Assembly (NCBI RefSeq): GCF_009676955.1
Contig: NZ_CP045696.1
Span: 62,001-126,000, forward strand
Direction of reading: 5' to 3'
Source of the DNA: Sodaliphilus pleomorphus
GTDB lineage: Bacteria > Bacteroidota > Bacteroidia > Bacteroidales > Muribaculaceae
DNA: 64,000 bases
The translations under genes were made by a program, and so were the position numbers. Under the pieces are notes generated by a model. The model was given only the letters and a program-made list of their open reading frames with translations, was not told where the DNA came from and did no database searches. This document shows positions 40,651-45,047 of the stretch, in pieces. Each line of letters opens with the position of its first letter. Within the stretch, counting starts at the first letter, position 1.

Positions 40651-41424
40651 CTATTTCAGGTTTTGCCTCACCTCGTTCAAGTATTGCTTCATTGCATGCT
40701 CGTCTTTGTGGTCGATGATGCGCTGCAGCCGGTCGAGCTGCGACTTGATTTTGTCGAGTTGCCGGCTTGTTCTGGGGTTGAAGAGGATTTCCTGGAGCAA
40801 GTAGTCGTCTTCACTCATCAGCCCTCGCGCGATGGCCATGTGCCGCTTGAAAGTGGTGCCTGGTGCATCTTGATGCTTCATGATGCTGGCAAATACCAGT
40901 GTGCTTGCAAAGGGTATCGACAATGAGTAGGAAATCGTCTCGTCGTGTTGCTCAAAGGTGTACTCACACACGTGCAAGTGAAGCTGGTTGTAAAGGTCTC
41001 TAAAAAAGACCTTTCCAAGATGGTCGCTTTCGCTTATGATTATTGCATTCTCGTTGCTCAGGTTGTTGAGCGATGCAAACGTGGGGCCGAACATGGGGTG
41101 TGTGCTCACAAAGGGGTGACCGCAAGTAGCGTAAAACTCAGGAAGACCGCTCTTGACCGAAGCTATGTCAGATATAATGCAGATATCTGGCAGATAGGGG
41201 AGTACCTGGTTGAAAGCCGAAACAGTGTATTTCACGGTAGCTGCATTGATCATCAACTCAGGTTGAAACTCCCTGATTTCGTCCATGGTTGTAAATCTCA
41301 AGGCATTGAATGTAAACCGCAGGCGTTCGGCCTCGATGTCGTAGATTGCCACTTCGTGCTCGCGACTCAACACGTCGCAAAAGAAGTTGCCCATCTTCCC
41401 GGCGCCAATTATTAAAATCTTCAT
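40651..41424 (-). CDS. tyrA: Prephenate dehydrogenase
   Basis: A 257-residue NAD(P)-dependent enzyme for tyrosine synthesis. The Rossmann motif is LIIGAGKMGNFFCDVL at the N-terminus, and STHPMFGPTFASLNN holds the catalytic His of the TyrA family. It is shorter than E. coli TyrA because it has no chorismate mutase domain; that activity is on the preceding gene. Last gene of the pheA operon, 51 bases after the DAHP synthase gene. Confidence 0.9.
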   Translation of the reverse strand: MKILIIGAGKMGNFFCDVLSREHEVAIYDIEAERLRFTFNALRFTTMDEIREFQPELMINAATVKYTVSAFNQVLPYLPDICIISDIASVKSGLPEFYATCGHPFVSTHPMFGPTFASLNNLSNENAIIISESDHLGKVFFRDLYNQLHLHVCEYTFEQHDETISYSLSIPFASTLVFASIMKHQDAPGTTFKRHMAIARGLMSEDDYLLQEILFNPRTSRQLDKIKSQLDRLQRIIDHKDEHAMKQYLNEVRQNLK

Positions 41425-41475: not shown

Positions 41476-42573
41476 TTACAGTGCATTGCTATTTATAACC
41501 CTTATCTGCTGTCTTACCGACTCCTCGTGTACAGCCTGCATCACCGTTTCAATGAAGTCGCCACTCATGCCCAGCTCTTCGGCCTGGTTGTGGCGCTGAC
41601 TCATCATTGTGCTGTAGCGCTGTGCCTGCACAACCTGCATGTTGTGCTCCTTCTTGTATTGCCCTATTTCGCGGGCTATGGCCATGCGCCTGCTCAACAC
41701 CTCGAGCAGCTCATTGTCGCACTCGTCGATGTGCTGACGCAGCAGCGCCAAGTTTTCGGTTGATTGCTTGGTTTGTCGCAACACAAGCGTGTTGATGATT
41801 AGATTGAGCGAGTCGGGGGTGACTTGTTGCTTGGCATCGCTCAAGGCACAGTCGGGATTGCAATGTGATTCTATGATGAGACCGTTGAAGCCCATGTCGA
41901 GAGCTTGCTGGGAGATGGGGCCTATGAGCTCACGCTTGCCTCCCATGTGAGAGGGGTCGCACAAGATGGGCAAGTTGGGAATGCGACGATGCAGCTCGAT
42001 AGGAATGTGCCATTGCGGTTCGTTGCGGAACAGGTGCTTGCCATAGGTGCTGAAACCGCGGTGAATTGCACCGATGCGGCGCACTCCGGCATTGTAGATG
42101 CGCAGCATTGCGCCTATCCACAACTCAATGTCGGGATTCACAGGATTTTTCACCAGTACAGTCACGTCGTTGTGTCCTTTCAGTGCATCGGCGATTTCTT
42201 GCATGGCAAAGGGGTTGGCACTGGTGCGGGCTCCTATCCACAAGATGTCGACTCCCGAGTCGAGCGCTGCAATCACATGTTCGTGATTGGCCACTTCGGT
42301 AGCTGTCAACATGCCGGTTTCTTTCTTCACTTCTTGTAGCCACAAGAGTCCCTTGATTCCCACGCCTTCAAAGCCTCCTGGTTTTGTGCGAGGCTTCCAT
42401 ATGCCGGCGCGGAATATTTTGATGCCATTTTTTGCCAGCGACTTGGCCGTGTCGAGCACCTGGCTCTCGCTCTCGGCACTGCACGGACCTGCAATGACAA
42501 GTGGTTTGTCGGGATTCACTCCGTCAAAACTCAAGGGTTTTATATCTTGCAAAAGTTGTTGTCTATCAGTCAT
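41476..42573 (-). CDS. DAHP synthase fused to chorismate mutase
   Basis: A 365-residue bifunctional enzyme. Residues 1-255 are the type I beta DAHP synthase (KPLVIAGPCSAES, FRAGIWKPRTKPGGFEG, LPILCDPSHMGGKRELI), the entry step of the shikimate pathway. Residues 275-365 are a chorismate mutase (IDECDNELLEVLSRRMAIAREIGQYKKEHNM). In such fusions the mutase domain often provides feedback control of the synthase by prephenate. Thus one operon covers the first and last steps of Phe and Tyr synthesis. Confidence 0.93.
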   Translation of the reverse strand: MTDRQQLLQDIKPLSFDGVNPDKPLVIAGPCSAESESQVLDTAKSLAKNGIKIFRAGIWKPRTKPGGFEGVGIKGLLWLQEVKKETGMLTATEVANHEHVIAALDSGVDILWIGARTSANPFAMQEIADALKGHNDVTVLVKNPVNPDIELWIGAMLRIYNAGVRRIGAIHRGFSTYGKHLFRNEPQWHIPIELHRRIPNLPILCDPSHMGGKRELIGPISQQALDMGFNGLIIESHCNPDCALSDAKQQVTPDSLNLIINTLVLRQTKQSTENLALLRQHIDECDNELLEVLSRRMAIAREIGQYKKEHNMQVVQAQRYSTMMSQRHNQAEELGMSGDFIETVMQAVHEESVRQQIRVINSNAL

Positions 42574-42580
42574 AGTAGTA

Positions 42581-43765
42581 TTATTGTTTTATGAATTGGT
42601 TAATACGATTTAATGCTTCACGCAGGTTGTCTTGGGTGGCGCACAGCGAAACGCGTATATACCGGTTGCCGTTGCTCCCAAATATAAACCCTGGAACTAC
42701 AAACACGTGGGCCTGGTATAAAACATCGTCGGCAAGCTCTCCGGCATCGGCATAGCGGTCGGGGATTTTCCCCCACACAAACAAGCCTGCCTGCTCCTTG
42801 TCGTAGTGGCAGCCCAGTGCATCCATGATGCGCTCGGCAATGACGCGACGCTTGCGATACTCGGCATTCAACTCTTCATACCAGGAGCTGTCGCACTCAA
42901 GTGCTTTGACAGCTGCGAGCATCATAGGCTTATACTGGCCTGAATCGACATTGGATTTCACTTTCAAAATCCAGTTGATGAAGGCAGGGTTACTGGCCAC
43001 CATGCCCATGCGCCAGCCAGGCATGTTGTGCGACTTGCTCAATGAGTTCATCTCGATGGCTATGTTTTTGGCTCCTGGCACCGATAGAATGCTCAATTGT
43101 TGTCGATGTAGGATGAAACTATAGGGATTGTCGTTGACAATCACAATGTTGTGTTTCTTGCCAAATGCAACCAAACGCTCGAATAGCGATATTGATGCCT
43201 TGTGACCAGTAGGCATGTGCGGGTAGTTGACCCACATGAGCTTGACACGCTCGAGGGGCAAACGTTCGAGTGCTTCAAAATCGGGCTCCCAGTTGTTGTC
43301 CTCGGTCAAGTCGTAGTTGTAGATGACAGCTTCGGCTATCTTGCTGACAGATGTATAAGTCGGGTAGCCAGGATTGGGCACAAGCACGCCGTCGCCAGGA
43401 TTGACAAATGCCAGGGTAGTGTGCAATATGCCTTCTTTCGACCCTATGAGCGGCTGAATCTCGCTATCAGGGTCCAAGTCGACATTGAAATATTTCTTGT
43501 ACCACTTGGCGTAGGCCGCTCTCAAAGCCGGAATTCCCACATAAGGTTGATACCCATGTGCCTCGGGCTTGTGAGCCTCGCGACACAGGGTGTCGACAAC
43601 GGCGGGGTGGGGTGGACGGTCGGGACCGCCTACTCCCAGAGAAATGATACCAGCACCCTGCGCATTGAGGCTGGCGATCTCTTTGAGCTTGACCGAGAAG
43701 TAATACTCTTTTATTTGCTGCACGCGATGTGCTGGCACTATATCATTGTAAATTGCATTCTGCAT
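42581..43765 (-). CDS. Class I aminotransferase (aromatic biosynthesis operon)
   Basis: A 394-residue PLP enzyme of fold type I. LVPNPGYPTYTSVSKIA is in the large domain, NDNPYSF supplies the Asp that contacts the pyridine, and EMNSLSKSHNMPGWRMG contains the PLP lysine. Located between pheA and the DAHP synthase gene, it probably transaminates phenylpyruvate and 4-hydroxyphenylpyruvate to Phe and Tyr; this role is inferred from context, and an aspartate or LL-diaminopimelate activity cannot be excluded. Its start overlaps the 3' end of pheA by 23 bases. Confidence 0.87.
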   Translation of the reverse strand: MQNAIYNDIVPAHRVQQIKEYYFSVKLKEIASLNAQGAGIISLGVGGPDRPPHPAVVDTLCREAHKPEAHGYQPYVGIPALRAAYAKWYKKYFNVDLDPDSEIQPLIGSKEGILHTTLAFVNPGDGVLVPNPGYPTYTSVSKIAEAVIYNYDLTEDNNWEPDFEALERLPLERVKLMWVNYPHMPTGHKASISLFERLVAFGKKHNIVIVNDNPYSFILHRQQLSILSVPGAKNIAIEMNSLSKSHNMPGWRMGMVASNPAFINWILKVKSNVDSGQYKPMMLAAVKALECDSSWYEELNAEYRKRRVIAERIMDALGCHYDKEQAGLFVWGKIPDRYADAGELADDVLYQAHVFVVPGFIFGSNGNRYIRVSLCATQDNLREALNRINQFIKQ

Positions 43766-44585
43766 ATTCTCCTAAAATTTTAAAATCATTGATGAGTGGC
43801 CGAGTTGCATCGATCGACTGCTTGTATCGCTTATAATCGTTGAAAGTTAAGTCGATATAGAAGCGGTACTCCCATTCTCGCCCTATGATGGGCGTGGATT
43901 GAATCTTGGAGAGATTCATCCCGTAGAAAGAAAATATCGTGAGCACAGCCGACAAGCTTCCTTGTGTGTGGGGAAGTGTGAACACAATCGATGCCTTGTT
44001 TACTTTTTTGCTTTGCATGAAGCAACCTGCTGCCGCAGGATGGGCAACAATCAAGAAACGTGTTGAATTGTGCTTGTTGGTCTGGATATCGCTTTCAAGC
44101 ACTTGCAAGCCGTATAGCCGGGCTGCATACGTGCCACACACGGCAGCATGTCCCATGAGCCGGCCCTCGGCAATCATCTTGGCACTCCCAGCAGTGTCAT
44201 TGGTTTCTACCACTTTCATCTTTGGGTGGCGATGCAAGTATTGCTCGCACTGCAGCAGGGCCATGGGGTGAGAGTTAACCTCGACAATGTCTTCGAGCAT
44301 CTGCCCAGGCAGGGCAGCTATGGCGTGTGAAATGTGCATTTTGTGCTCACCAGTGATAATCTCATTGCTTTGTCGCAACAAGTCATAGTTCTGGAGCAGA
44401 CTGCCGGCAATTGTGTTTTCTATGGCCATAATACCAAGCATTGAAGCATCGTCGTGAAGCAGGGAAAACATGTCGCGAAACGTGTCGCAAGGTATTGTTT
44501 CAATATCTTGTCCTTGGAAATATTCACGAGCAGCAGCATCATGAAAGCATCCGGCAACTCCTTGTATGGCGACTTTGTGAATCAA
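43743..44585 (-). CDS. pheA: Prephenate dehydratase
   Basis: A 280-residue enzyme that converts prephenate to phenylpyruvate. The catalytic domain has VAIQGVAGCFHDAAAREYF and STRFLIV, the family's TRF signature. The ACT domain follows from about residue 195. Its Phe-binding motif, normally ESRP, reads QSTP here (KIQSTPI), so feedback by Phe may be weak or different. The start is TTG at 44585-44583: the family N-terminus begins exactly there, with AGGGA 15 bases before. First gene of the operon, behind the attenuator at 44610-44775. Confidence 0.93.
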   Translation of the reverse strand: MIHKVAIQGVAGCFHDAAAREYFQGQDIETIPCDTFRDMFSLLHDDASMLGIMAIENTIAGSLLQNYDLLRQSNEIITGEHKMHISHAIAALPGQMLEDIVEVNSHPMALLQCEQYLHRHPKMKVVETNDTAGSAKMIAEGRLMGHAAVCGTYAARLYGLQVLESDIQTNKHNSTRFLIVAHPAAAGCFMQSKKVNKASIVFTLPHTQGSLSAVLTIFSFYGMNLSKIQSTPIIGREWEYRFYIDLTFNDYKRYKQSIDATRPLINDFKILGEYAECNLQ

Positions 44586-44609
44586 TTTTATAATGAATTT
44601 CCCTGTATG

Positions 44610-44639
44610 AAAAATCCCGTCAATTTCGCTTGGCGGGAT
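44610..44639 (-). terminator. Attenuator terminator in the pheA leader
   Basis: On the minus strand ATCCCGCCA (44639-44631), loop AGCGAAAT and TGACGGGAT (44622-44614) form a nine-pair stem with one mismatched or wobble position, followed by TTTT. It ends 25 bases before the pheA start, so it must be bypassed for the operon to be expressed. Its 5' arm can instead pair with GGTGGAATG (44695-44687), which lies right after the leader-peptide stop codon: eight of nine positions pair, one as a wobble. Confidence 0.75.
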
Positions 44640-44696
44640 GTTATCTTAAAATCAAAATGTGTCTATTAAAAAAATAGAAAAATGAGCATTCCACCT

Positions 44697-44750
44697 TTAT
44701 CGATTGAAATAAAAGTAATAGTAATAATAATATGCACTAAATCGCTTCAT
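44697..44750 (-). CDS. Tyr/Phe-rich leader peptide of the pheA operon
   Basis: A 17-codon frame, MKRFSAYYYYYYFYFNR, with ATG at 44750-44748 and TAA at 44699-44697. Seven codons are Tyr and three are Phe. It starts 18 bases after a TACATTTG promoter box, behind an A-rich AAGAAAGAAAA start region. The antiterminator segment begins two bases after the stop codon and the terminator lies further down. This is the arrangement of ribosome-mediated attenuation: stalling at Tyr or Phe codons when the charged tRNAs are scarce would free the antiterminator and let polymerase read into pheA-tyrA. Confidence 0.8.
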   Translation of the reverse strand: MKRFSAYYYYYYFYFNR

Positions 44751-44767
44751 TTTTCTTTCTTTTGGTG

Positions 44768-44775
44768 CAAATGTA
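44768..44775 (-). promoter_or_regulatory. -7 box of the pheA leader transcript
   Basis: TACATTTG on the minus strand, a perfect TAnnTTTG match, 17 bases before the leader-peptide ATG. The -33 region is AT-rich without a clear TTTG. The rest of the gap to 45047 is AT-rich and shows nothing recognisable. Confidence 0.55.
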
Positions 44776-45047
44776 GAAATTTTTGATTAAAGAATTAAGT
44801 TTTTGCCGTTTTTTTTTAAATGCTTGCATGAGTAAAATAGCAATGCAGCATGGTAATCAATTTATTATCAACATCTTTTATTTCACTTCCTTTATTATAC
44901 AAATCTTTTTTAAACTGTTGTGTCAAAAACGAGGGGGAGAACTTCCGTGTCCAAATTTAACATAATGTCAATTATAGTTCAATTGTAGATTGAAATAATT
45001 AGCAAGCTTGCAACATTGATTTGAGCTGCACAAGCACTTTCCCATTA

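Follow-up and report, generated by a model that had tools for sequence, protein, structure and literature searches.

A probable ribosome-mediated Tyr/Phe attenuator in front of the pheA operon of a gut Bacteroidales bacterium

Genes and leader parts at the locus

The window, a stretch of 64,000 nucleotides from Sodaliphilus pleomorphus, carries on its minus strand the operon pheA-aminotransferase-aroF/CM-tyrA, preceded by a short leader frame and a terminator (Table 1). The Pfam matches of pheA, the aminotransferase, the DAHP synthase-chorismate mutase fusion and tyrA are in good agreement with the initial annotation, according to which the operon makes Phe and Tyr, the amino acids of the leader. 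The pheA frame is opened at 44585 by TTG and not by ATG.

Table 1. Coordinates of the operon genes and leader elements in the window
Feature	Position	Strand	Basis
Promoter box TACATTTG, TAnnTTTG-type -7	44768..44775	-	sequence
Leader ORF MKRFSAYYYYYYFYFNR + TAA, 17 codons, ATG start	44697..44750	-	sequence; relatives
Segment 1, 5' arm of 1:2 hairpin, within codons TAC TTT TAT TTC	44708..44717	-	window RNA fold; same helix counted in relatives
3' arm of 1:2 hairpin, overlaps stop codon and segment 2 start	44692..44701	-	window RNA fold; relatives
Segment 2, antiterminator GGTGGAATG, partner of terminator 5' arm	44687..44695	-	sequence; duplex; covariation
Segment 3, terminator 5' arm CATCCCGCC	44632..44640	-	sequence; terminator script; covariation
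Segment 4, terminator 3' arm ACGGGAT	44614..44620	-	sequence; terminator script; covariation
Terminator T-run TTTTT	44610..44614	-	sequence
pheA, prephenate dehydratase, TTG start	43743..44585	-	Pfam PF00800
Aromatic aminotransferase candidate, class I/II	42581..43765	-	Pfam PF00155
DAHP synthase - chorismate mutase fusion	41476..42573	-	Pfam PF00793, PF01817
tyrA, prephenate dehydrogenase	40651..41424	-	Pfam PF02153

Box, leader, segment 2, terminator and pheA had been described in this order, and a base-for-base match was found on the minus strand. Direct reading of 44695-44687 placed GGTGGAATG two bases past the leader stop codon, as had been claimed. Its announced complementarity to CATCCCGCC was also recovered, with eight of nine positions paired, one of them as G-U; RNAduplex gave the same pairing at -11.0 kcal/mol, a value that 5 of 200 dinucleotide shuffles equalled. 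The terminator hairpin (ATCCCGcCAA-gcgaaa-TTGaCGGGAT, 44639-44614) consists of 6 + 3 base pairs with one C.A mismatch between them. The window leader displays nine Tyr or Phe in nine residues; eight or more in nine were reached in 0 of 2000 dinucleotide shuffles of the 450 bases 5' of the window pheA. The 1:2 hairpin was absent from the parts first listed for this region.

Conservation and compensatory changes in relatives

In order to follow the leader in relatives, 100 pheA loci were compared, the window's own included. Three of them (L085, L094 and L100) were unusable and five (L063, L082, L084, L086 and L087) were duplicates, leaving 92 distinct upstream regions, 87 of them 150 bases or longer. 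A leader with six or more Tyr or Phe in nine residues was found in 76 of these 87 regions, window included. The reverse strand gave 3 of 87, and 20 rounds of dinucleotide shuffling gave 1.45 on average and never more than 4. With a stricter threshold of eight in nine, the same 87 regions gave 55 leaders on the forward strand, 1 on the reverse strand and 0 after shuffling. A chance origin of the leader was ruled out by the shuffles together with the conservation. In 70 of 74 leaders a box of the form TAnnTTTG or TAnnTTCG lies at most 70 nt 5' of the start codon, against 5.1 expected from single-base shuffles. The C-termini of the leader peptides vary among the relatives.

The leader is missing in 16 of the 92 regions, 11 with a full-length upstream region and 5 shortened by contig ends. 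In 5 of the 11 full-length cases tyrA lies at operon distance, judged by coordinates. At L049 the TATATTTG box and the terminator are retained upstream of pheA and the Tyr/Phe codons are lost, and this locus is read here as a decayed or fixed-off attenuator. No pheA match was obtained in 30 of 36 other genomes of the same genus (G001-G036), and 16 of those 30 have a completeness of 90% or more; contigs may be missing, or the strains may be auxotrophic for Phe/Tyr. Candidatus Sodaliphilus fimicaballi belongs to this genus too, because L004 is duplicated by L082, whose genome is listed under the same genus as the window.

A core block without Tyr was observed in L053, L055 and L088. A tyrA search covered 58 genomes and gave matches in 47, two of them weak, nearness to pheA being judged by coordinates and strand only; it returned no tyrA match near pheA for L053 and L055 and none at all for L088. 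The link between Tyr content of the leader and tyrA in the operon is only suggestive, because several Tyr-containing leaders, for example L062, L064, L065 and L067, have no tyrA match near pheA either.

A strict script placed a terminator in 74 of 81 leader units, including that of the window. L017 was placed wrongly among the 74, since the script had picked the wrong hairpin, and it was excluded from the alignment, the codon randomisation and the switch models. Over the 74 units, the antiterminator duplex had a mean of -15.6 kcal/mol, compared with -8.0 for shuffled sequences and -11.6 for non-cognate partners. It was matched by at most 2 of 200 shuffles in 48 units and by at most 10 of 200 in 59; in 8 units the cognate duplex was weaker than the non-cognate mean. 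The window antiterminator is one of the weakest seven among the 74.

Compensatory changes were counted on A1, a structure-free MAFFT alignment of 61 of the 73 unit references (60 distinct sequences). The gene-proximal leaders of L052, L056 and L058, both leaders of L093 and L099, and L092, L095, L096, L097 and L098 were omitted from it. RNAalifold returned the terminator alone; as this program reports one structure and the three helices are mutually exclusive, the helices were then named and their pairs counted. For the terminator helix (3:4), 96.8% of cells were paired, with 35 double-change cells compared with a shuffle mean of 3.8 and double changes at 5 of 9 pairs. The antiterminator helix (2:3) had 90.2% of cells paired, 42 double-change cells against a shuffle mean of 15.2, and double changes at 4 of 7 pairs. 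Slid-register controls on A1 paired 30-69% of cells, a comparison that flatters 2:3 and 1:2 somewhat, their column pairs having been chosen on A1 itself. The aligned sequences are kin, and shuffle counts are accordingly not probabilities.

Many units fold a long hairpin in the leader and segment 2, whose 5' arm is made of Ala-Tyr and aromatic codons. Its outer stem is GCAUA:UAUGC and its inner stem, for instance, CUUUUAUUU:AAAUAAGAG. This third helix, 1:2, joins the aromatic codons to segment 2 and, with weaker support, completes the classical attenuator set. When 100 synonymous-codon randomisations were folded per unit, the native helix surpassed their mean stability in 64 of 73 units, and with 100 codon permutations it did so in 60 of 73; the synonymous-codon effect is modest (median rank 25 of 100). 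On A1, 84.8% of its cells were paired and 34 double-change cells were counted, compared with a shuffle mean of 14.0. Double changes fell at 8 of 16 pairs, a number of pairs that shuffles reached in 145 of 500 cases, and the pair-type count was equalled by 187 of 500. Sliding the register by -1 gave 31 double-change cells at 9 pairs, against 34 at 8. The covariation score was 0.289, compared with 0.169 or less in slid registers, and the paired percentage likewise stands out. From these counts, 1:2 appears to be the least strongly supported of the three helices. The parts of this RNA are open to compensatory-change testing, and all of them pass, 1:2 with less force.

Conservation of the leader frame and hairpins in close relatives had been set at the outset as the point on which the attenuator reading would stand or fall. 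Leader, antiterminator and terminator were found to be conserved and covarying in the relatives, and the reading was not refuted; it is supported by both conservation and covariation.

Spacing and modelled switching

The distance from the last Tyr/Phe codon to the first paired base of segment 2 was determined on A1. Its median was 12 bases (interquartile 12-13), and it was 12 or 13 in 32 of 61 rows and 10 in the window. Measured from the end of the stop codon, the start of segment 2 ranged from -29 to +7, a 36-base range, and its first paired base lay inside the ORF in 34 of 61 rows. Segment 2 holds its distance to the aromatic codons and not to the stop codon. Segment 2 would just escape a ribosome halted at the last aromatic codon, and would be covered once the ribosome had moved on by a few codons; a passage of PMC4833913 puts the reach of a ribosome at up to 12 nt past a stop codon. 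The spacing is arguably the strongest sign that the ribosome position is sensed. Together with the synonymous-codon constraint, the spacing of about 12 bases provides quantitative predictions.

Full-length equilibrium folding gave a lower terminator probability for the stalled than for the finished state in 27 of 73 units, a higher one in 4 and about equal values in 42, window included. It was dropped as a switch test, having shown no difference in 42 of 73 units and a reversal in 4. A snapshot model was adopted after this result had been seen, in which RNA polymerase stands just short of segment 4 and the ribosome footprint is barred from pairing. Here a stall at the last Tyr/Phe codon gave a pairing of 0.73 between the terminator 5' arm and the segment-2 region, and a ribosome at the stop codon gave 0.09. 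For a stall four codons earlier it was 0.78, and for free RNA 0.51. The stalled value exceeded the stop value in 72 of 73 units; the sole exception was the window, with 0.05 in both states. In 33 of 73 units the stalled value was over 0.1 higher than that of free RNA, and in 6 it was lower. Termination without translation is weakly supported in this model, because free RNA already gives 0.51 and stalling adds more than 0.1 in only 33 of 73 units.

A codon-by-codon model was run with the footprint reaching 9 or 11 bases past the A-site codon. For L009, the pairing was 0.69-0.72 at the last Phe and dropped to 0.07 two codons on. For the window with the longer footprint, stalls at codons 1-7 (Phe 4 among them) gave 0.40-0.47 and those at Tyr codons 8-11 gave 0.59-0.69; the value then fell to 0.11 at Y12 and to about 0.05 beyond (F13, Y14 and F15). 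In the model, the A-rich 5' end of the window RNA pairs with the U-run past segment 2, and the predicted failure to switch at the late codons can be attributed to this helix. It might be blocked by a following ribosome. As modelled, the window copy is weak. Since stalls at its last four aromatic codons switch hardly or not at all, the sensing of both Tyr and Phe rests on the family more than on the window copy.

Proposed mechanism, alternatives and relation to known leaders

Ribosome-mediated attenuation is textbook knowledge for enterobacteria. The element is very probably a ribosome-mediated transcription attenuator of pheA-aminotransferase-aroF/CM-tyrA that senses charged tRNA-Tyr and tRNA-Phe. 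RNA polymerase would start just 5' of the leader and a ribosome would begin the 17-codon peptide. With ample charged tRNA-Tyr and tRNA-Phe, the ribosome at the stop codon would cover segment 2, 3:4 would form and the operon would be off. If either tRNA is uncharged, the ribosome would stall on the aromatic block, opening 1:2 and leaving segment 2 free about 12 bases downstream. The free segment 2 would pair with the terminator 5' arm (2:3), and transcription would go on. In the case of no translation, 1:2 could hold segment 2 and the terminator would form. Judged from the sequence, the gut bacterium very probably makes the operon only when Tyr and Phe are scarce.

The Tyr/Phe-rich peptide, or its frame as an upstream ORF, might instead control pheA translation by reinitiation or peptide arrest, the terminator being incidental. 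The leader ORF does sit 5' of pheA, and PMC4833913 describes a proposal of leader-gene reinitiation in which the stop-to-start distances in Bacteroidetes peak at 11-14 bp. However, the leader stop and the pheA start are 111 bases apart with the terminator included, segments 2, 3 and 4 covary, and neither the place of the stop codon nor the peptide C-terminus is conserved, which makes this explanation very improbable. A metabolite-binding riboswitch, with a Tyr or Phe aptamer that contains the ORF by coincidence, is hardly credible. It would be in keeping with the structured leader RNA (fold z = -3.57 for segment 44605-44766) and the terminator at its end. The conserved part is nevertheless the Tyr/Phe codon block, which lies at a distance from segment 2 that suits a ribosome footprint; no Rfam family scored above cut-off in the window, and no compact aptamer core is conserved, since the sequence from segment 2 to segment 3 varies among the relatives.

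Compatible with attenuation, and unlikely without being far-fetched, is a window copy of a real family that is weak or decaying and is mostly terminated or mainly Tyr-responsive. The weak antiterminator, the competing 5' helix and the standing of the window as sole exception among 73 units in the stall model point in this direction, as does the existence of a decayed relative, L049. On the other hand, all parts are present, the leader has six Tyr codons in an unbroken row, stalls at Tyr codons 8-11 still throw the switch in the model, and L001, the nearest relative, has the same architecture.

The spread of the attenuator family was evaluated with a covariance model, R1, under strict filters and with rough E-values. 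In the window's genome only this locus was found at E up to 1 (E 1.6e-9). Across 296 genomes of the phylum, 49 matched at E up to 0.01, with 62 matches in total. Sixty-one matches lie outside the window's genome; 29 of them, mostly the best-scoring ones, were fetched, and pheA adjoins the match in 22 of these, all in genomes of the same order or the same class. Other classes of the phylum contributed three of the fetched loci (L121, L128 and L130), and in these pheA is not adjacent. The spread is claimed for the class and not for the phylum, because 0 of the 22 pheA-adjacent matches come from outside the class.

At L112, the R1 match has an Ile-rich leader, MKNLNNIIITITIIAIQQ, with a terminator-like hairpin, and the downstream protein is presumably a threonine dehydratase, ilvA-like; it looks like the same architecture for another amino acid. 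The other six fetched R1 loci have neither pheA nor a leader with six Tyr/Phe in nine, and look like chance matches.

Two Tyr/Phe leaders in tandem, each followed by its own terminator, precede pheA in L052, L056, L058, L093 and L099. One leader of the pair is very short in L093 (13 residues) and in L099 (10 residues). A gap of just 6 bases separates the stop of the second leader from the terminator stem in L056 and L058, and a ribosome at this stop would overlap the stem. If the tandem reading is true, two terminators must be passed. There is about an even chance that all this represents one unregistered RNA family across the window's class, and perhaps wider in Bacteroidota, acting as a two-input Tyr-or-Phe attenuator with a footprint ruler that some lineages have doubled. 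Wide use, if true, would mean that ribosomes closely trail RNA polymerase in these bacteria, at least near the promoter.

A known Rfam family was ruled out by the lack of a match at gathering score; 44560-44860, searched at E up to 10, gave only 12 sub-threshold matches, to other families. The Phe_leader model, taken here to be RF01859, had no match at gathering score and was not among the matches at E up to 10. In the enterobacterial pheA attenuator (pheL), a leader with Phe codons and exclusive 1:2, 2:3 and 3:4 helices with an intrinsic terminator lie upstream of pheA. The window element shares the leader with Phe codons, the exclusive helices, the terminator and pheA downstream. In contrast to pheL, its block mixes Tyr with Phe, its operon also makes Tyr, its promoter is of the TAnnTTTG type and no Rfam model recognises its sequence. 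A further difference is that flavobacteria, relatives in the same phylum, are described as being without Shine-Dalgarno sequences in a section of PMC9723704.

Two other RNAs bear comparison with the element. Bacteroid-trp has a Trp-codon leader with a terminator before trp genes. This RNA (RF01692) was not found in the window's genome at E up to 0.001, nor among the matches of 44560-44860 at E up to 10. Like the window element it comes from this phylum and is cis-regulatory, as its trp-named entry in Weinberg et al. 2010 (PMC2864571) indicates, but it concerns different amino acids and genes. The Leu/phe leader of Lactococcus, listed as RF01743 in the same source (PMC2864571), reads two amino acids, judged by its name, but belongs to another phylum and to another amino-acid pair; the Rfam search gave no match to it in the window.

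Closer to the window element is a conserved structured 5' element before pheA in Flavobacterium psychrophilum and other Flavobacteriaceae, also without an Rfam hit, described in an excerpt of PMC9723704. It is probably of the same family, for which peptide, helices and amino-acid specificity are described here. Strong clues for leader-peptide attenuation upstream of amino-acid operons are mentioned in the same text (PMC9723704), and sORFs reminiscent of attenuation leader peptides are noted for B. thetaiotaomicron in a passage of PMC7366714. No description of a Tyr/Phe attenuator in Bacteroidales was found in the literature searched; older comparative surveys may include one.

The mechanism is the enterobacterial one. 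The present analysis adds the leader peptide with its mixed Tyr/Phe block, the compensatory changes in the helices, the ruler, the tandem copies and the spread. The literature searched has little on ribosome-mediated attenuation in Bacteroidota, to which many dominant gut bacteria belong. The family offers a genetic handle on Tyr/Phe sensing by gut bacteria, and a direct test of transcription-translation coupling where translation mostly starts without a Shine-Dalgarno sequence.

Other leaders were looked for in the window's genome. No leader peptide was seen by eye in the 350 bases 5' of the chorismate-binding genes L133 and L134. For ilvD (PF00920) there was no match in the whole genome, the gene being present in 14 of 14 control genomes. 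Upstream of hisG, at L131 (G000:C1, 2251652-2252119, minus strand), a His-rich leader, MVYTHRHHHHHSSIPHRKARYGCCSTRR, lies behind a TACCTTTG box and is followed, by eye and by fold, by a terminator-like hairpin with a T-run and then hisG. This is a candidate for a second attenuator in the window's genome, and the His leader with its hairpin counts for the attenuation reading of the pheA leader.
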